Source: Haloferax marisrubri (GTDB taxonomy: Archaea > Halobacteriota > Halobacteria > Halobacteriales > Haloferacaceae). From it: a stretch of 64,000 nt of DNA. Shown in pieces: positions 10,498-20,823 of this stretch. A program made the translations under genes and the position numbers. A model generated the notes under the pieces. The model did not search any database, had not been told where the DNA came from, and saw nothing but the letters and a program-made list of their open reading frames with translations. The stretch covers positions 64,239 through 128,238 of the forward strand of contig NZ_LOPW02000018.1 of the NCBI RefSeq assembly GCF_001469875.2. Reading direction: 5' to 3'. How positions within the stretch are numbered: position 1 is the stretch's first letter; every line of letters begins with the position of its first letter.

Positions 10498-11736
10498 CTA
10501 TCGAATCGGTCGCGTGCGGAGTCGGTACGCCCCGCGCGTGACGCTCTCGTCGTGGTACTCGACCGGTTCTTCGACCACCGCGAGGACGCTCCCGCCCGCG
10601 GCGATGGCGGTCGGGATGCCGGGGAGTCCCATCGTTTCGACGTGCCCCGCGTCGGGGGCGAAAACGTGGACGCCGTGGCGCTCGGCCTCCCGCTCCCGGA
10701 AGTGCTGGGCGGACGGCACGAATACCCGCGACTCGGCCGCGACGGTAGCGCGTGCGAATCCACCGGTGTCGCGGGTCCACAGACGGTCACCCCCGTCGAC
10801 CGAGACGCCGACCGCGGTGTGTTCGTCGGGGTGTCGCGCGTCCGGGTCGCGGGTCGATTCGGCGAACGTGTTCCCCGTGACGAAGACGGCGGTTTCGTCG
10901 GCGACGCAGACGTGGTTCGGGTAGGCGTAGACTGTCTCGTCGCCGACGCGGCGCTTGGTCGCGAGGTCGAGTTGCCACTGCGGCTCCCCGGCGAAATCGA
11001 GGAGGTAGCCGCGTTTGTCGCCGTGGCTGGCGACGGCCAACGCATCGCCCGCGAAGGCCACGTCGCCGACGCGTCGGTCCCCGTCGGTGCCGGGGTCCCA
11101 CGACGCGACTCGACCCCCGGTGTGGGCGTCGAGGAGAACGAGGCCGTCCTGTTCGGGGTTCGGGCAGCGGTTGTACGCGACGGCGACGCGGTCCCCTTCG
11201 GCGGCGACCGCGATGGGCGACGCGTAGACGTGTCTGCGCCACGCGAGCCGACCTCCCCGGTCGAACCCGAGGACGACGCTCCGCCAGACTCGCGCTTCGC
11301 CGTCCCGTTCGTAGCGCCGGGCGACGACGACGACCCTGTCGCCCGTCACCGCGAGGTCGACGACGTACGGTCGGAAGAACAGCGAGTCCTTCGTCGCCGT
11401 GCCCACGTCGTCGGCCGTCGCGTACGTCCAGCGGGCGACGCCCGTCTCGGCGTCGAGGACGCGAACCAGCCCGTCGCCGCCGCGCTCGCCGACGACGAGG
11501 AACTCGTCGGTGGCGGATATCGACACCACGGAGTGCTCGCCGCGCGCCTGCCAGCGTTCGCTGGCGTCGGGCGTGGAATCGGTAGCAGTCTCCAGCGCGA
11601 CGACGCGACCGTCCGCGGTCCCGACGAAGACGGCGTCGTCGGTCGCTTCGACCGCGGAGCGAGCCCAGTTGTGGCGGCTGCTCGCGGCCTCGACTTCCCC
11701 GAGGTCGCGGCGGGCCGTGAGTGGGGACGGTGCCAT
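10498..11736 (-). CDS. PQQ/WD40-like beta-propeller protein of the cobalamin operon
   Basis: Protein of 412 residues made of repeated beta-propeller blades such as VFVGTADGRVVALE, LVRVLDAETGVARW and LVLLDAHTGGRVASW, the pattern of PQQ-like and WD40-like repeats. There is no signal peptide or membrane helix, so it should be cytoplasmic. It is the last gene of the long corrin operon, 6 bp after the DUF3209 gene, and converges with chlID. Similar genes sit in other haloarchaeal cobalamin clusters as far as I recall. A scaffold or sensor role is inference; no catalytic residues are evident. Confidence 0.75.
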   Translation of the reverse strand: MAPSPLTARRDLGEVEAASSRHNWARSAVEATDDAVFVGTADGRVVALETATDSTPDASERWQARGEHSVVSISATDEFLVVGERGGDGLVRVLDAETGVARWTYATADDVGTATKDSLFFRPYVVDLAVTGDRVVVVARRYERDGEARVWRSVVLGFDRGGRLAWRRHVYASPIAVAAEGDRVAVAYNRCPNPEQDGLVLLDAHTGGRVASWDPGTDGDRRVGDVAFAGDALAVASHGDKRGYLLDFAGEPQWQLDLATKRRVGDETVYAYPNHVCVADETAVFVTGNTFAESTRDPDARHPDEHTAVGVSVDGGDRLWTRDTGGFARATVAAESRVFVPSAQHFREREAERHGVHVFAPDAGHVETMGLPGIPTAIAAGGSVLAVVEEPVEYHDESVTRGAYRLRTRPIR

Positions 11737-11742
11737 CGGGAG

Positions 11743-12126
11743 TCAGTCCTCGACGGGGAAGGCGTCGTGGAGCGTGTGGTGCGCCTCTCCGAGGTCGTCG
11801 AGGAACCCATCGGCTCCCTCGCGGATGCGGCGAAGCGACCGCTCTGCGTCGCGGACGGCGACGAGCCGTCCCCGAAGGTAGCCCGATTGCGGGTCGTCGT
11901 CGTCGATTCGCGTCGCCTCCGCTTCGAGGTCGACGAGCGCGGCGTCGAGGTGCCGCTGGGCCTCGTCGAGGCTGGTCGCGTTCGCGAGCGCCTGAATCGG
12001 GCCGGGGTCGGCGTCGCCGAGGTAGTCTTCGAGTTCGGCTTCGGCGTGTCGCTTCGCGTGTTCGTCGGTCGTTCCGGTGATGTTCAGGAGCGCCAGTCGG
12101 AGCGCTTCGAGTTCTGCACAGGCCAT
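11743..12126 (-). CDS. DUF3209 family protein
   Basis: Small acidic helical protein of 127 residues starting MACAELEALRLALLNI. It matches what I know of DUF3209, a haloarchaeal family of unknown function found in cobalamin clusters. The length and the repeated Glu/Asp/Arg/Leu heptad-like pattern suggest a helical bundle. The ATG at 12126 is supported by the 2-bp gap to the cbiX stop. A role as chaperone or adaptor for a corrin enzyme is only inference from position. Confidence 0.75.
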   Translation of the reverse strand: MACAELEALRLALLNITGTTDEHAKRHAEAELEDYLGDADPGPIQALANATSLDEAQRHLDAALVDLEAEATRIDDDDPQSGYLRGRLVAVRDAERSLRRIREGADGFLDDLGEAHHTLHDAFPVED

Positions 12127-12128
12127 GA

Positions 12129-13349
12129 TTAGAGTGATTGGTGGACGAGGTTCGAGACGATGCGGTCCCGCTCGAGATGGGACGAGACGATGCGGTCGGT
12201 GTCGTCGGGCGTCACGCCGCCGTACCAGACGCTGTCGGGGTAGACGGCGACGATTGGGCCGTCGCCGCACTGGCCGAGACACGAGCTTCGAGAGACGTGG
12301 ACATCGCAGTCGTCGGCGTCGCGCACGCCCTGTCTGAGTCGTTCGAGGACGGTCGCCGCGCCGCTCGCGGCGCAGGTCTGGTTCGTGCAGACCGCGACGT
12401 GTTTCTCGGGGGCGTCGTGGATGTGCGGGTCGTCGTCCACGTCGCTCCGGTCGGCGTGTTCGGCCTGATGGACGAGCGAGCGGAGCATCGCGCGAGCGCC
12501 GCCCTCGTCGTCCTCGTAACCGGCGAGTTCGACCTTGTACTTGCAGGTGTCGCAGGACATCTCGACGCTCCCGGAGCGCGCTTCTCGGTAGCGGTCAGCG
12601 AGGGTCTCGACCACCCGATCGTCCACGCCGAGCGGTCCGGACGCGCCGGCGTCGACGTATGGGTACTCCTCGTCGAACGTCTCGGCTTTGTCCACGATTC
12701 GCCCCGTCAGCACGCCGTCGCCGAGCATGTACGGGAGGACGACGACCGCGTCCGGGCGGTCCTTGGCGACGGTGTGGAGCGTCTCCTCCAACCGCGGCGT
12801 CGTGACGCCGATGAACGCCGATTCGACGCGGGTGAACCCGCGGCCCTCGTACAGCAGGCGGGCCAGTTTGTGCACGTCCCCGTTCGAGTCGGGGTCGCTC
12901 GACCCGCGAGCGCAGAGCACGACCGCCACGTCGTCGTCCTCGCGGTCGGCGCCGAGGTCGGACTCCACCGCCCGCGCCCGCTCGTCTAACAGGTCCACGA
13001 GCGAGGGGTGGATGCCGAGGTGCGAGCCGAACCGGAACTCGGTGTCGTCGTGGGTCGCGCGGGCCCGCTGGACCGCCAGCGGCACGTCGTTTTTGACGTG
13101 GCTCGCGGCGAAAAGCGAGAGGGGGACGACGGTCATCGTCCGGCAGGTCGGTGCCATCGACTCGATTGCGTCGTCTATCGAGGGCTCGGCGAGTTCGATG
13201 TACGCCGCGTCAACTGGGACCGACAGCCGGGACTCCAACTTCGCGGCGAGCGTCCGAACCTGCTCGTTGGACTCCTCGCGGCGCGAACCGTGGCCGACGA
13301 GGAGCACCGCGTCGTCGTCGAGCGTCGGGTCGGGCCGTTCGAGACTCAT
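12129..13349 (-). CDS. cbiX: Sirohydrochlorin cobaltochelatase CbiX fused to a 2Fe-2S ferredoxin domain
   Basis: Predicted to insert cobalt into sirohydrochlorin, the first committed anaerobic corrin step. The 406-residue protein has two CbiX halves followed by a redox domain. Half one has LLVGHGSRREESNEQV (17-32) and HVKNDVPLA. Half two begins VVLCARGSSDPDSN and lacks the GHG histidine, so only the first half looks catalytically complete. Near 280 is SCDTCKYK. The C-terminal thioredoxin-like ferredoxin has cysteines in VCTNQTCAASG and SSCLGQCGDG. I chose the ATG at 13349 because it overlaps the previous stop by 4 bp and directly precedes the CbiX domain. Confidence 0.9.
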   Translation of the reverse strand: MSLERPDPTLDDDAVLLVGHGSRREESNEQVRTLAAKLESRLSVPVDAAYIELAEPSIDDAIESMAPTCRTMTVVPLSLFAASHVKNDVPLAVQRARATHDDTEFRFGSHLGIHPSLVDLLDERARAVESDLGADREDDDVAVVLCARGSSDPDSNGDVHKLARLLYEGRGFTRVESAFIGVTTPRLEETLHTVAKDRPDAVVVLPYMLGDGVLTGRIVDKAETFDEEYPYVDAGASGPLGVDDRVVETLADRYREARSGSVEMSCDTCKYKVELAGYEDDEGGARAMLRSLVHQAEHADRSDVDDDPHIHDAPEKHVAVCTNQTCAASGAATVLERLRQGVRDADDCDVHVSRSSCLGQCGDGPIVAVYPDSVWYGGVTPDDTDRIVSSHLERDRIVSNLVHQSL

Positions 13350-14017
13350 GCGTTCTCCGCCTCTTCGAGGCTGCGGACGAGCTTTCGACGCCGCGTCGGC
13401 GCGAACAGGTTCGTCTCGTCGCTCCCCTCGTAGACCCACTCGCCGAAGCCGGCGGCCGCGTCGTCGTCGATGCCGAACCAGTAGCCGCCCGACGAGGTCT
13501 CGCCAATCTCGCCGGTCGGTGCGTCCACCGGGCAGGCGTCGAGCAGTCGGTCCACGGTTTCGAGGAGCGCCCGGTCGTCGTGGACGAACGAGATGCCGAC
13601 CGTCCCCGACGAGGACTTGAAACAGACCGTCCCGCAGGATTCGAGGAGTCCCCGAAGGAGCTGTTTTCGCCGGGCGTCGAACACGTCGAAGCGGTAGCCA
13701 CCGGCGTCGTCGCCGACCGGGAGGCCGAACGCGGCGCTCGCGCTTCTGACCACGTCGCCTTCGACCATGACGTGGTACTCGTCTTTGACGCGGGTGACGG
13801 CGGTGTTGTGGGCGTACTCTCGCTCCGTCTCCCGGCGGTCGATTTCGCCGCCGCCGGCGATGACCGCGAGGCGGTTCGCACAGGTCTCGTCGTTCGTCAG
13901 CGCCGTGAACTGTCCCGGCTCGACCGCTCCGCCGCCGGCGACGTGACCCCAGAGATAGGCCGTCTCGGGCGTGCTTTTCAGGAGGTCGTCCGCGGAGGCG
14001 ACGCGGGTGTCGCTCAC
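13346..14017 (-). CDS. Conserved cobalamin-operon protein with LAGLIDADG/WhiA-like segments
   Basis: Protein of 223 residues I cannot assign to a characterised enzyme. Two segments resemble the two halves of a LAGLIDADG/WhiA-type fold: LWGHVAGGGAVEPGQF near 22-37 and RGLLESCGTVCFKSSSGTVG near 120-140. The second has the helix-ending small-residue pattern and following beta strands of homing endonuclease domains. The acidic catalytic positions are not clearly preserved, and no intron or intein is present, so nuclease activity is doubtful. It is embedded in the operon with 4-bp overlaps on both sides, which argues for a corrin-related or regulatory job. The fold is my inference. Confidence 0.6.
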   Translation of the reverse strand: MSDTRVASADDLLKSTPETAYLWGHVAGGGAVEPGQFTALTNDETCANRLAVIAGGGEIDRRETEREYAHNTAVTRVKDEYHVMVEGDVVRSASAAFGLPVGDDAGGYRFDVFDARRKQLLRGLLESCGTVCFKSSSGTVGISFVHDDRALLETVDRLLDACPVDAPTGEIGETSSGGYWFGIDDDAAAGFGEWVYEGSDETNLFAPTRRRKLVRSLEEAENA

Positions 14018-14271
14018 GCGTCCACCTCCCGGACCGAAATCGCGCCCGGCGGACAGGCTCGCGCCGCGAGCGTCGCGTCGTCGCCGTCTGCTTCGGCATC
14101 TCCTTCGAGGAGGGCGACGACGCGCTCGCCCGTCTGCTCGACGCTCACGACGCCGGCCGCGTCGGGGTCGATTGTGGCGAGTCCGTCGTCGTCCTCGACG
14201 AACCGGCCGTCGCGGGCGAGGCAGGCGAAGATGCCGTCGCAGGCGTCTCGGTCGATTTCGATTTCGAACAT
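14014..14271 (-). CDS. Small ferredoxin, probably [3Fe-4S]
   Basis: Electron carrier of 85 residues. The three cysteines (Cys11 and Cys17 in ACDGIFACLARDG, Cys73 in ARACPPGAI) follow the CX5C...CP pattern of single-cluster [3Fe-4S] ferredoxins. A fourth cluster ligand is absent, so a [4Fe-4S] form would need another ligand. It sits one base after the stop of a cbiH gene and overlaps the next gene by 4 bp. A role supplying electrons for ring contraction or cobalt reduction in this pathway is plausible but inferred. Confidence 0.85.
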   Translation of the reverse strand: MFEIEIDRDACDGIFACLARDGRFVEDDDGLATIDPDAAGVVSVEQTGERVVALLEGDAEADGDDATLAARACPPGAISVREVDA

Positions 14272-15256: not shown

Positions 15257-16135
15257 TTAGAAGTCGTCGACGTCGCGCCCGCCGCGGGGCGTGACGAGGT
15301 ACGTTTCGTAGTCGTTGCTCCAGGGTTCGGTCTCGTGGGTGCCGATGAGAATCGACGTGCCCATCCCGCCGACGTCTTCATCGTGGGCCGTCGCGTCACC
15401 GAGGGTCGTAATCGAGAACGTCTCGTCGTCCAGATTTCGGCCCGCTTCGCCCCGGCCGGCGTCGTTGAAGATGCCGACCGGCACGTCGTCGGCCCGCTCC
15501 TCGCGGACCACGTCGATGGCGCGTTCGTAGTTCCGCCAGCAGTTGTACAGGACGACGACGAAGCCGCTGATGGCCGCCGCGCGCAGTTTCTCCTCGATTT
15601 CGTCCCAGCCGCGCCACTTGTCGGACAGCGAGACCGTACAGAAGTCGTTCGACAGCGGCGCGCCCATCATGGCCGCGCCGCCGAGCGCCGCGGTGACGCC
15701 GGGGACGATTTCGACCGGCACGTCGGTCGCTTCGTCCGTCTCCGCCATCGTGAACACGAGGTCGGACTTCCCGTAGACGTTCGGGTCGCCGCCGGAGACG
15801 TGGACTACGTCCTCGCCGTCGCGGACGCGCTCGAACGCCTCGCGGGTCAGTTCGACCTGTTTTCCCATCGACGAGCGGACGACCTCCGGCCCCTCGTCGC
15901 TTCCTTCCGGGGGGAGCGTTCCGTCGTCTCGGAGGAACTCCTGATAGAGGTTCGAGGCGACCACGCAGTCCGAAGTCGAGACGAGTTCCGTCGCTCGCTT
16001 CGTCATGTGGTCGGGGAGACCGGGACCGATGCCGACGACGTAGAGGGTTCCGTAGTCGTCCGGGACCTCGTCACGGTCGCGGTTGCGGTCGCTGGAGCCG
16101 GACGCCGGTTCGGTCTGCTCGCCGCCGTCGCTCAT
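15257..16135 (-). CDS. cbiH: Cobalt-precorrin-3 C17-methyltransferase CbiH, second copy
   Basis: Paralogue of the following gene, 292 residues. The core includes YVVGIGPGLPDHMTKRA near 32-48, VSGGDPNVYGKSDLV, PGVTAALGGAAMMGAPLSND and VVLYNCWRNYERAIDV. The ATG at 16135 overlaps the cbiG stop in an ATGA, which settles the start against longer in-frame possibilities. It lacks the Cys-Gly tail of its neighbour. Two CbiH-type proteins are usual in haloarchaea; whether one has another methylation target or they form a heteromer cannot be decided here. Confidence 0.88.
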   Translation of the reverse strand: MSDGGEQTEPASGSSDRNRDRDEVPDDYGTLYVVGIGPGLPDHMTKRATELVSTSDCVVASNLYQEFLRDDGTLPPEGSDEGPEVVRSSMGKQVELTREAFERVRDGEDVVHVSGGDPNVYGKSDLVFTMAETDEATDVPVEIVPGVTAALGGAAMMGAPLSNDFCTVSLSDKWRGWDEIEEKLRAAAISGFVVVLYNCWRNYERAIDVVREERADDVPVGIFNDAGRGEAGRNLDDETFSITTLGDATAHDEDVGGMGTSILIGTHETEPWSNDYETYLVTPRGGRDVDDF

Positions 16136-17960: not shown

Positions 17961-18664
17961 GCCGACCCCCCCGATTCGACGCCGTCGAACGCGGCGGTCG
18001 CCACGTCGCGCTCGACGCCCTCGCGCTCCGCGTAGGCCAGCGTGTAGTAGTCGCGCTCCGCGAGTTCGTCGGGGTCGTCGGTGACGACTGTCTCGCCTTG
18101 CTCCATGAACAGGCGGCGGCCGAACCGAACGTCGTAGCCCGCCTCGGTCAGTTTCTCGTGGGTCGCGGGCGCGTCGGTGACCTTGAACAGCACCATTCGG
18201 TCGGGACCGGTCGGCGCGGAGCCGTTCGCGGCCTCGCGGAGCGCGAGTCCGGTTCCAGACTCGATTTCGACGCCGAGCGCGGTCGTGAAGGCCGTCATCG
18301 CGCTCACGCCGGGGACGACTTCGAGGTCGACCTCGGGGTGGAACGCGTCGAGGGTGCGGCGGAGATGTCCGAACGTCGAGTAGACGTTGGGGTCGCCGAG
18401 GGTCACGAACGCCACGTCCTCGGACTCGGCGCGGGCGGCCACCTCGGCGGCGGCCTCCTTCCACGCGCGGCGGAGTTCGTCGGGGTCGCGCGTCATCGGG
18501 AAGTCGAGGTCGCCGATGCGCTCCTCGGGGACGTGGTTCAGCGCGACCGTCCGCGAGAGCCGACCGGGCGAGTAGACTACCGCCGCAGATTCGAGCAGGC
18601 GTTTCCCTTTGACGGTCACGAGGTCGGCGTCGCCGGGGCCGAGGCCGATGCCGTAGACGGTCAT
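17957..18664 (-). CDS. cbiL: Cobalt-precorrin-2 C20-methyltransferase CbiL
   Basis: Methylates C20 of cobalt-precorrin-2. The protein has 235 residues, typical of CbiL. It begins with YGIGLGPGDADLVTVKG, then ALNHVPEERIGDLDFPMTRD, VTLGDPNVYSTFGHL and VPGVSAMTAFTTALG. The position between cbiT and cbiF with 4-bp overlaps on both sides shows it is part of the same polycistronic unit. Confidence 0.93.
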   Translation of the reverse strand: MTVYGIGLGPGDADLVTVKGKRLLESAAVVYSPGRLSRTVALNHVPEERIGDLDFPMTRDPDELRRAWKEAAAEVAARAESEDVAFVTLGDPNVYSTFGHLRRTLDAFHPEVDLEVVPGVSAMTAFTTALGVEIESGTGLALREAANGSAPTGPDRMVLFKVTDAPATHEKLTEAGYDVRFGRRLFMEQGETVVTDDPDELAERDYYTLAYAEREGVERDVATAAFDGVESGGSA

Positions 18665-19215
18665 AGCCCCTCCGCGTCGCGTCGACCGACGACGACGAAC
18701 ACCGGGTTGTTCGACCGGAAACTCGTCGCGCCGGCGAGTTCGTAGCCGTGGCTCACCTGTAACTGAACGACCTCCGAGAGCAGGTCGCGCTCGCGGAACG
18801 CCTCGATTGCGTCGCCGGCGGGTTCGACCCGCGAGACGTTCATGACGACTCGGTCCACGCCGGTCTCGACGGCGTGGTCGAGGACGGCCTCGAAGTTCCG
18901 ACTCCCGCCGACGAACATCGCGTCGGCGTCGGTCGGAAGGCCGTCGGGAGCCTCCGCCTCGCGGAGCGTCACGTCAGCGTCGTACTCGTTCGCCGCGAGG
19001 TTCTTTCGCGTCACGTCCAGCCGCTTCGGTTTGCGCTCGACGGCGGTCACGCGCTCGACCCGCCGGGCCGCCTCGATGGTGACGGAGCCGGTACAGGAGC
19101 CGACGTCGACGAAGTGGTCCGTCGGCCGCAAGCCGAGTTTGTCGAGCGTGACCGCTCTCACCTCCGGTTTCGTTGGTCCCGCCTTGGCGTCGTGCGGGAG
19201 CGTTACCTGTGACAT
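18661..19215 (-). CDS. cbiT: Cobalt-precorrin-6B C15-methyltransferase (decarboxylating) CbiT
   Basis: Class I SAM methyltransferase of 184 residues. It has the entry motif DAKAGPTKPEVRAVTLDKL near 8-26, motif I FVDVGSCTGSVTIEAAR near 34-50, VTAVERKP, and AMFVGGSRN for motif II. I placed the start at 19215: the sequence further upstream is A/T-rich promoter DNA and the preceding in-frame codons do not resemble the family. It heads the eleven-gene corrin operon running to 10498. Confidence 0.92.
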   Translation of the reverse strand: MSQVTLPHDAKAGPTKPEVRAVTLDKLGLRPTDHFVDVGSCTGSVTIEAARRVERVTAVERKPKRLDVTRKNLAANEYDADVTLREAEAPDGLPTDADAMFVGGSRNFEAVLDHAVETGVDRVVMNVSRVEPAGDAIEAFRERDLLSEVVQLQVSHGYELAGATSFRSNNPVFVVVGRRDAEGL

Positions 19216-19385
19216 TCGACTCGACAATCCCGGCGCGGTTTGAAAACAATTGTGCTTGTAGTACAACAATCTAACTTTCATAAAATACGCCCGCCGAGTT
19301 ATTAAATCGAAATTGGTAAAACACAATCTCACTTGTCTTCGAAAGTTTTACAAACAGACTTGGTTTTCATCAATTTGAATTTACC
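19216..19385. promoter_or_regulatory. Divergent promoter region of the corrin operon and cbtBA
   Basis: This 170-bp A/T-rich segment lies between cbiT (minus) and cbtB (plus). It contains the perfect inverted repeat TTGTAGTACAA at 19256-19266, about 41-51 bp before the cbiT start, a plausible operator. A TTTTAC element at 19347-19352 could serve as the cbtB TATA box. I see nothing like a cobalamin riboswitch. Coordinated cobalt or B12 control of both directions is inference. Confidence 0.5.
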
Positions 19386-19571
19386 ATGGCTACGGCGAAC
19401 ACCGTCAACGGTCGTATCGAACGCGCTCGCACCGAGTTGTCTCCCACGCAGATGGCCGCGGGAGCCCTCTTTATCGCCGCACTGGGATTTACGCTCCTGT
19501 TCGTGCAGGACCCGCTCGTCCACGACTCACTCCATAACTTCCGCCACGCGGCCGGCATCGCCTGCCACTGA
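19386..19571 (+). CDS. cbtB: Cobalt transporter subunit CbtB
   Basis: Membrane protein of 61 residues with one hydrophobic helix (about 22-41, MAAGALFIAALGFTLLFV). The C-terminal tail has four histidines in HDSLHNFRHAAGIACH, the usual CbtB mark for metal binding. It is directly followed, after 2 bp, by cbtA. Length and layout match known CbtB proteins, so the call is firm despite the size. Confidence 0.85.
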   Translation: MATANTVNGRIERARTELSPTQMAAGALFIAALGFTLLFVQDPLVHDSLHNFRHAAGIACH

Positions 19572-19573
19572 CG

Positions 19574-20482
19574 ATGTTCGCCGAGTACCTGACGCGGGGG
19601 GTGAAGGCGGGGTTGGTCGCCGGACTGGTGTTCGGTCTGTTCATGGCCGTCGTCGCCAACCCCCTCGTCGCCTACGCGGACGAACTGAACCACGCCGCCG
19701 TCGAGGAAAGCGGTCACAGTCACGAGGCGGAGAGCGCCCACAGCCACGACTCCGAGGGGACTCACAGCCACGACTCCGAGGAGACTCACAGCCACGACTC
19801 CGAGGAGACTCACAGCCACGACTCCGAGGAGACTCACAGCCACGACTCCGGTGACTCCCACGCCGGCGAAGGCGGCGGTCATCACGACTCCGCGGTATCG
19901 ATGGCGGTTACGAAGGCCGTGAGCGTCGCGGCCGGCGGACTCTGGGGCGTCGTGCTCGGCGGCGCGTTCTTCGGGGTCGCGTTCTTCTTCCTCGAACCGG
20001 CGATTCCGGCCCCCGACGCCGCGAAGAGCTACCTGATGGGACTCGCGGGATTCGTCACCGTCTCGGGCGCGCCGTGGCTGGTCCTCCCGCCTGTCGCGCC
20101 GGGCGCGGAACAGTCGCTTTCGGCGGCGACGCGCCTCCCGCTCTACGCCGGGATGATGCTCGCCGGCGCACTCGCTTGCCTCTCGGCGGGGTACGCCTAC
20201 ACCCGCTTGCGCGAATCGAGCGGCCCCGTCCCGGCCGTCATCGGCGCGGCCGTTCCGTTCGCTCTGCTCGCGGTGCTCGCCGTCTTCGCTCCCGAAAACG
20301 CGGTTCACGGTGCGCTGTCGCCGACGCTCGAAACCGGACTCACCGGACTGTTCGCGTTCGGGCAGGTCCTCCTGTGGCTGGTCCTCGCGGCGGCGCACGC
20401 GCGGTTCCGGCCGTCGAGTGAGTCCGAGTCCGAATCGGCGATTCCGACCGCAGGCCGGGACTCGGCCCCCATGGCCGACTGA
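19574..20482 (+). CDS. cbtA: Cobalt transporter subunit CbtA with expanded His-rich loop
   Basis: Predicted cobalt channel or transporter of 302 residues with about five to six hydrophobic helices (near 12-33, 115-145, 157-177, 190-215, 225-245 and 255-275). Between the first and second helices, about residues 40-105, it carries a Gly/Glu/Asp/His segment in which HSHDSEET recurs. Such histidines usually capture divalent metal, and the tandem copying suggests recent expansion. It overlaps the following ferredoxin gene by one base. Position next to the corrin operon supports cobalt as the cargo. Confidence 0.87.
   Translation: MFAEYLTRGVKAGLVAGLVFGLFMAVVANPLVAYADELNHAAVEESGHSHEAESAHSHDSEGTHSHDSEETHSHDSEETHSHDSEETHSHDSGDSHAGEGGGHHDSAVSMAVTKAVSVAAGGLWGVVLGGAFFGVAFFFLEPAIPAPDAAKSYLMGLAGFVTVSGAPWLVLPPVAPGAEQSLSAATRLPLYAGMMLAGALACLSAGYAYTRLRESSGPVPAVIGAAVPFALLAVLAVFAPENAVHGALSPTLETGLTGLFAFGQVLLWLVLAAAHARFRPSSESESESAIPTAGRDSAPMAD
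19739..19850 (+). repeat. In-frame 24-bp tandem repeat within cbtA
   Basis: Four full copies of a 24-bp unit start at 19739, 19763, 19787 and 19811, and a partial fifth starts at 19835. The copies are almost identical at DNA level, the first differing by one base in the Glu/Gly codon. Each encodes His-Ser-His-Asp-Ser-Glu-Glu/Gly-Thr. The identity points to slippage or unequal exchange, so copy number may vary between strains. Confidence 0.9.
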
Positions 20483-20823
20483 TGCGCGACCGAACCGACG
20501 AGGTCCGCGAGCACGGCTTTACGGACCACGTGTTGGTCTGTACGAACGGCCGAGAGTCCGAGTACGCCGACTGCGCCGAGGCCGACGGCCCGGCGGTGTA
20601 CGACGCGGTGACCTCGTGGTTGCGCGACCGTGGCGTCTTCTGGTCGCGGGTTCAGGTCGCCGAAACGAGCTGTCTCGGGCTCTGTAGCGCCGACGGGGCC
20701 GCGGTCGCCATCCACCCGCGAAACCGGTGGTACTCGGACGTTCGCCCCGAGGACGTGCCGGCGCTGTTGGCCGACGAGTTCGGTCCCGACGCGTCGAACC
20801 TCGGCGTTCGACCCACTCGCTGA
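20482..20823 (+). CDS. Thioredoxin-like [2Fe-2S] ferredoxin
   Basis: Soluble redox protein of 113 residues related to the C-terminal domain of CbiX in this window: both have VCTN near the start, a central SCLGLC/SCLGQC motif and a V(A)xxPxxxWY segment. The cysteines are in VLVCTNGRESEYADC (19-32) and ETSCLGLCSADG (61-72). It is translationally coupled to cbtA. It may support cobalt reduction or the chelation step; that is inferred from context. Its final residues are an unstructured tail. Confidence 0.82.
   Translation: MRDRTDEVREHGFTDHVLVCTNGRESEYADCAEADGPAVYDAVTSWLRDRGVFWSRVQVAETSCLGLCSADGAAVAIHPRNRWYSDVRPEDVPALLADEFGPDASNLGVRPTR

Follow-up and report, generated by a model that had tools for sequence, protein, structure and literature searches.

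The domesticated LAGLIDADG proteins that we know of, WhiA and HO, act on DNA. WhiA has an HTH domain, as described in the available part of PMC11701221. On the side of vitamin B12, the available part of PMC8305020 leaves HVO_B0052, HVO_B0053, HVO_B0055 and HVO_B0056 of the Hfx. volcanii cobalamin cluster without function, and reports two consecutive gaps in the haloarchaeal pathway, EC 2.1.1.195 and EC 1.3.1.106. For the cobalt chelatase, a role in metal storage and delivery has been proposed for a His-rich region of CbiX-L, and cobalt insertion was unaffected by deleting that region (PMC7689651, in the part available). Here we describe the HVO_B0055-like protein of Haloferax marisrubri, its predicted fold, and its distribution relative to the types of CbiX.

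Gene and Operon Layout

The window (the whole stretch of 64,000 nucleotides of Hfx. marisrubri DNA that was analysed) harbors a run of genes on the minus strand in the order cbiT-L-F-G-H1-H2-ferredoxin-HVO_B0055-like gene-cbiX-DUF3209-PQQ protein. The features are listed below in the direction of the run; where a name was taken from PMC8305020, the available part of that text was used.

18661..19332, minus strand: CbiT, first gene of the run (name by gene order and PMC8305020)
17957..18664, minus strand: CbiL (name by gene order and PMC8305020)
17109..17966, minus strand: CbiF (name by gene order and PMC8305020)
16132..17112, minus strand: CbiG (CbiG_N match at G000:C18:80922-81158)
15257..16135, minus strand: CbiH1-like methyltransferase, start codon inferred (name by gene order and PMC8305020)
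14273..15253, minus strand: CbiH2 (precorrin-3B C17-methyltransferase family)
14014..14271, minus strand: small ferredoxin (Fer4_15), HVO_B0056-like, directly upstream of the HVO_B0055-like gene, 4-bp overlap
13346..14017, minus strand: LAGLIDADG-fold cobalamin-operon protein (HVO_B0055-like), 223 aa, GTG start
12129..13349, minus strand: CbiX cobalt chelatase, HVO_B0054-like, directly downstream, 4-bp overlap
12183..12410, minus strand: C-terminal 2Fe-2S thioredoxin-like domain of CbiX, residues 314-389, located where other CbiX proteins have the His-rich tail
11743..12126, minus strand: DUF3209 protein (HVO_B0053-like), helical, with the fold of Thermus TTHB059 (2ehw)
10498..11736, minus strand: PQQ-repeat beta-propeller protein (HVO_B0052-like)

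The gene at 13346-14017 is present as a single copy in the Hfx. marisrubri genome and, by gene order, is likely the ortholog of Hfx. volcanii HVO_B0055. The initial annotation had it coupled to its neighbours by ATGA overlaps. Overlaps of 4 bp are indeed found on both sides; the one with the downstream cbiX is ATGA and the one with the upstream ferredoxin is GTGA. The gene is under purifying selection, with dN/dS values of 0.22-0.34 against ten relatives. No Rfam match was found in the window between 3000 and 22000.

Several neighbours were looked at in their own right. The DUF3209 protein (11743-12126, minus strand) gave a helical model with a pLDDT of 93.6 that superposes on TTHB059 (2ehw) with a Z of 16.3 and 35% identity, and a metal or cluster site is suggested by its C3, H27, H59, H116 and H120, which do not vary among 38 members. 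Tandems of CbiX and DUF3209 are also found in the B12 clusters of Thermus and Leptospira. Divergent from cbiT, the stretch 19386-20823 (plus strand) carries a 61-aa ORF whose position alone suggests CbtB, a gene for a CbtA cobalt transporter (PF09490, E 1.6e-43) in which a 24-bp tandem repeat encodes His-rich units, and a gene for a 113-aa protein that resembles by eye the 2Fe-2S end of CbiX.

Predicted Fold

The HVO_B0055-like protein was modelled with AlphaFold from an alignment of 42 relatives, out of the 72 then at hand. The model (pLDDT 87.7, pTM 0.87) runs helix-strand-strand-helix-strand-strand-helix twice, the order of a duplicated LAGLIDADG fold. A Foldseek search of the PDB gave 31 matches below E 0.001, rows 1 to 34 of the output were all LAGLIDADG proteins, and the top match was I-Tsp061I (E 1.4e-7). 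With VIA-align, the model was superposed on I-DmoI with a Z of 15.6 (rmsd 3.1, 167 residues aligned), on I-Tsp061I with a Z of 15.5, and on WhiA with Z values of 14.5 (8dy7_I; rmsd 3.4, 181 aligned) and 13.4, so that the WhiA match lies about one Z unit below those of the two endonucleases. Judged by this predicted fold, the protein belongs to the LAGLIDADG superfamily over its whole chain length. The initial annotation had read two segments, RGLLESCGTV (residues 122-131) and LWGHVAGGG (residues 22-30), as the core motifs of such a fold, and had named structure prediction and comparison with WhiA and homing endonucleases, before any was run, as the test on which that claim would stand or fall; the folds came out related and the claim stands. 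Both motifs end helices of the model (residues 17-29 and 110-128), and each is followed by a pair of strands.

The sequence itself gave much fainter signals. In a Pfam scan of the window protein with E up to 5, LAGLIDADG_3 was the only family reported, at residues 120-160 with 12.7 bits against a cut-off of 22.5 (E 0.16). The same family matched 22 of 42 members at E up to 1, the best at 6.1e-5, and was found, each time under the cut-off, in three of six members that were scanned separately. Taken alone, the sequence thus points weakly to the second motif. For the first motif there were weak Hom_end matches only, in 4 of 42 members, in one of them over residues 19-83. The internal duplication was not detected by sequence, since hhalign of the two halves gave 0.2%, inside the range of 20 shuffles (0.07-1.7%). 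No solved structure was found with the single sequence, and the profile gave chance-level matches only. The protein had no match in NCBIfam, and in PHROGs only weak ones, to families without known function.

Conserved Residues and the Nuclease Centre

Conservation was counted over 89 members; one copy split over two frames (L092, from genome G183) was left out. The positions that the counts concern are the following.

13928..13951, minus strand: degenerate motif 1, residues 23-30 (WGHVAGGG), with residue 29 at the catalytic position
13808..13810, minus strand: invariant His70 (89/89)
13628..13660, minus strand: degenerate motif 2, residues 120-130 (LLRGLLESCGT), with residue 128 at the catalytic position and E126 invariant
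13622..13624, minus strand: invariant Cys132 (89/89)

By mapping from I-CreI, we take residues 29 and 128 to be the catalytic positions. In an active enzyme, each motif helix ends in one acidic residue that binds metal. The 89 members include near-copies, as some genomes repeat others; the loci L074 and L021, for example, are on contigs of equal length. Residue 29 is S in 51, D in 19, G in 13, N in 5 and E in 1, that is, acidic in 20; residue 128 is C in 87, S in 1 and T in 1, and acidic in none. By these residues the catalytic acid of motif 2 is lost, and the HVO_B0055-like protein is predicted not to be an active nuclease. Seventeen residues are invariant in 89/89: A20, Y21, W23, G24, A47, H70, R122, G123, E126, G129, C132, G141, S143, F181, Y196, R209 and K212. 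H146 differs in two members.

Distribution and Synteny

In a draw of 194 Halobacteria genomes (given G numbers below, and their loci L numbers), the protein was found in 101 at E below 1e-20 and CbiG in 105, and no genome had the protein without CbiG; nine genomes with weak matches (E 0.008 or more) were not scored as present. In a draw of 351 Halobacteria, CbiG was found in 184 and the protein in 179, with both in 177 and neither in 165. CbiG alone was found in seven genomes (G001, G007, G051, G128, G268, G317 and G318), the absence of the protein from G268, G317 and G318 having been tested genome-wide at E 1e-5 only, and leniently in their cluster stretches. Two genomes had the protein alone, G316 and G339, the latter 88% complete. 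Fourteen of the 196 genomes of a phylum draw matched, none of them outside the class Halobacteria, and no relative was found in viral contigs.

The order ferredoxin, protein, CbiX on one strand is kept in 71 of 71 loci of named genomes; an intron, an intein or a sporadic insertion, any of which would mark a mobile element, is not what this synteny shows. The proposal in the initial annotation that the gene is a working, domesticated member of the operon and not an inserted homing gene is borne out by the synteny, the co-occurrence with CbiG, the purifying selection and the lost acid of motif 2.

The most divergent member, that of G021, has 198 aa, no LAGLIDADG match in Pfam, and keeps W23, G24, H70, E126, C128 and C132. 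It lies off the corrin cluster of its genome (L087:5445-8454, minus strand), in the order Cation_efflux, protein, rhodanese, Cation_efflux; the two efflux genes match PF01545 with E values of 6e-38 and 3e-46. Two other loci were irregular. The copy in G183 (L092:8088-8628, plus strand) is split over two frames by either a broken gene or a sequencing error, and G014 has two partial corrin clusters (L091 and L093), in one of which both CbiG and the copy of the LAGLIDADG protein are diverged.

A link to oxygen, in which the protein would be missing where the heme-copper oxidase is missing, was considered and rejected, since G268, G317 and G318 lack the protein yet have COX1. Among the 194 genomes, COX1 was absent from G092 and from G001, G007 and G128, and the last three are among the four that have CbiG and no protein; the link amounts to a partial tendency.

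Two Types of CbiX

Five of the genomes without the protein (G001, G007, G128, G268 and G318; L083, L084, L086, L094 and L095) have a compact cluster of cbiT-L-F-G-H1-H2-X alone. The ferredoxin, the HVO_B0055-like protein and DUF3209 were absent from these five clusters in a lenient profile search, and tblastn did not detect the PQQ gene in them. Their CbiX has no 2Fe-2S end and finishes in a His-rich tail, with 12-15 His in the last 45 residues. In G317, a His-tailed CbiX is encoded elsewhere in the genome. In G051, the ferredoxin is followed by a His-tailed CbiX of 313 aa (L085:12703-13644, plus strand), which takes the slot of the protein, and then by a 2Fe-2S CbiX. A His-rich CbiX tail is thus present in 7 of 7 genomes that have CbiG and lack the HVO_B0055-like protein. 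Among 71 loci with the protein, 69 encode a cluster CbiX with the 2Fe-2S end, and none that could be assessed has a His-rich tail (L011 and L040 were left out of the count, one having a fused ORF and one being cut by a contig end). Eight further loci with the protein agree (L089-L092, L101, L102, L104 and L106), and CbiX2 paralogs (n=16) have no His tail. The protein and the His-tailed CbiX show an exclusive pattern in haloarchaea.

Trees of CbiX and CbiG were used to place the exceptions. The 2Fe-2S forms of CbiX make up one clade (98/93) and the His-tailed copy of G051 falls outside it, so that it is not a copy of the 2Fe-2S CbiX of the same genome. In the CbiG tree, G051 is nested among clusters that bear the protein (97/93), and for this reason G051 looks like a secondary replacement of the protein by a His-tailed CbiX. 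The other clusters without the protein are basal in the CbiG and the CbiX trees, some of them on long branches whose placement is unsure. Since all are basal except G051, only two independent changes may lie behind the contrast. In addition, the five compact clusters lack, besides the protein, also the ferredoxin, DUF3209, the PQQ gene and the 2Fe-2S end of CbiX, and therefore only in G051 does the pattern single out the protein. Outside the haloarchaea, a 2Fe-2S CbiX together with DUF3209 is encoded on Thermus thermophilus pTT27 and in a Leptospira plasmid record, with neither a His-rich tail on this CbiX nor a relative of the HVO_B0055-like protein nearby. The 2Fe-2S CbiX therefore does not generally need the protein, which argues against an obligatory role.

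Proposed Role

The constant neighbours, ferredoxin and CbiX, together with the exclusion of the His-rich CbiX tail, lead us to prefer, tentatively and with more doubt than confidence, a role in the handling of cobalt as a partner of CbiX: the protein would be a domesticated LAGLIDADG protein, no longer catalytic, that is accessory to early cobalt insertion. It would be made together with the ferredoxin and CbiX through the overlapping start and stop codons, and would act on or with CbiX, perhaps as a physical partner. Co(II) or Co-sirohydrochlorin might be held at the rebuilt former metal and DNA face, where the invariant C132, E126 and S143 and the near-invariant C128 and H146 would be placed on the concave side, and cobalt or the product would be passed to or from the chelatase. 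The protein would then do the job of the His-rich CbiX tail of the minority of haloarchaea that lack it. A metal role is suggested indirectly by the genomic context, namely the cation-efflux neighbours in G021, the slot in G051 and the CbiX-tail pattern. This reading is weakened by variation at two of the residues named, C128 being T or S in 2 of 89 members and H146 differing in 2, and by two published observations. Early insertion by CbiK is described as needing no metallochaperone (PMC10206600, in the part available), which counts against the handling of cobalt. Since deletion of the CbiX-L tail was without effect according to the available part of PMC7689651, a substitute for that tail need not be important. 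A narrower version, in which the Mg-binding nuclease centre was rebuilt as a thiol-containing metal site (C128/C132, E126, H146 and H70) and the protein became a dedicated metallochaperone for cobalt delivery, we consider doubtful.

The protein could instead be a putative carrier of a corrinoid or of sirohydrochlorin between CbiX and the next enzymes, with no free metal involved. Y21, W23, R122, W180, F181, Y196, R209 and K212, conserved in 88 or 89 of 89 members, would suit a large acidic ligand, and the gene sits between cbiH2-ferredoxin and cbiX. We found no paper that pairs LAGLIDADG with a cobaltochelatase, LAGLIDADG was not found in the cobalamin and haloarchaeal literature searched, and the exclusion of the His tail and the cation-efflux neighbours in G021 fit a metal better than a corrinoid; such a carrier seems to us rather unlikely.

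In the available part of PMC8305020, the four unassigned cluster genes, HVO_B0055 included, are the obvious candidates for the pathway gaps, and the protein might thus fill that of CbiD (C1-methylation) or CbiJ (precorrin-6A reduction), perhaps with the adjoining ferredoxin as electron donor. In agreement with a gap, none of 194 Halobacteria, the present genome among them, had CbiD, and none had a CbiJ match above the cut-off. The five compact clusters run without all four unassigned genes, however, and in G001, G007 and G128, which were part of the CbiD/CbiJ draw, neither enzyme was found; none of the four can therefore be a universal gap filler, unless these pathways are incomplete or use another enzyme. 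The family models of CbiD (PF01888) and CbiJ (PF02571) did not match the HVO_B0055-like protein, and the LAGLIDADG fold, which spans its whole chain, also speaks against a gap filler. We know of no methyltransferase or reductase with this fold. That the protein stands in for CbiD or CbiJ appears quite unlikely.

A WhiA-like role, in which the protein would bind DNA or RNA polymerase and control the corrin operon, is similarly improbable. WhiA regulates with the aid of its LAGLIDADG domain, the structural matches of the model include WhiA chains, and a regulator within its own operon would be unremarkable. Against this, no HTH family matched at E up to 5 and the LAGLIDADG fold extends to the end of the 223 aa; the protein is acidic (net charge -17, pI 4.6; family median -26), as haloarchaeal proteins are in general; and the eight strand segments carry about 4.5 K/R against 10.4 D/E per sequence, residues of the core face and the DNA face being pooled. 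The constant place of the gene beside CbiX and the ferredoxin (71/71) likewise does not suit a regulator. Of the two functions suggested in the initial annotation, DNA binding thus finds little support and tetrapyrrole binding is conjectural; the data point to cobalt insertion by CbiX, a step that the annotation did not name. An active or recently inserted homing endonuclease, favoured by the fold alone, is extremely improbable: the second catalytic position is acidic in 0 of 89 members and the first in 20 of 89, the gene keeps the same place in 71 of 71 loci, with overlapping neighbours and purifying selection, and no relative was found in viral contigs.

Significance and Comparison with Known Systems

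A domesticated LAGLIDADG protein fixed in a coenzyme pathway, here in about half of the Halobacteria sampled (179/351), would represent a new use of this fold. The proposed role offers a testable hypothesis for one of the four unassigned haloarchaeal B12 cluster genes, and the clusters that do without all four weaken the published idea that these fill the CbiD and CbiJ gaps. If the narrower version with a rebuilt metal site is true, a fold known from DNA-cutting parasites was turned into a metallochaperone in a vitamin route described as having none. In the literature searched, no report of the HVO_B0055 fold or of the CbiX-tail pattern was found.

HVO_B0055 itself, by gene order of the same family, is named "cobalamin biosynthesis protein" in the plasmid annotation and is given no function in the available part of PMC8305020. 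The His-rich C-terminal region of CbiX-L, the proposed metal store, appears to be the haloarchaeal alternative to the HVO_B0055-like protein, with the difference that the tail is a low-complexity part of the chelatase and the protein is a separate folded one. Like the archaeal single-chain homing endonucleases I-DmoI and I-Tsp061I, the protein has over its whole length the duplicated alpha-beta-beta-alpha-beta-beta-alpha fold. Unlike these enzymes, it has Cys in place of the second catalytic acid (87/89) and mostly Ser, Gly or Asn in place of the first, is acidic, and is fixed in an operon and not found in an intron or intein. With WhiA (DUF199) it shares the presence of a LAGLIDADG domain in a cellular, non-homing protein, but it has no HTH, is haloarchaeal and is tied to corrin genes. 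The description that suits it best is that of a domesticated LAGLIDADG protein put to a new type of use.
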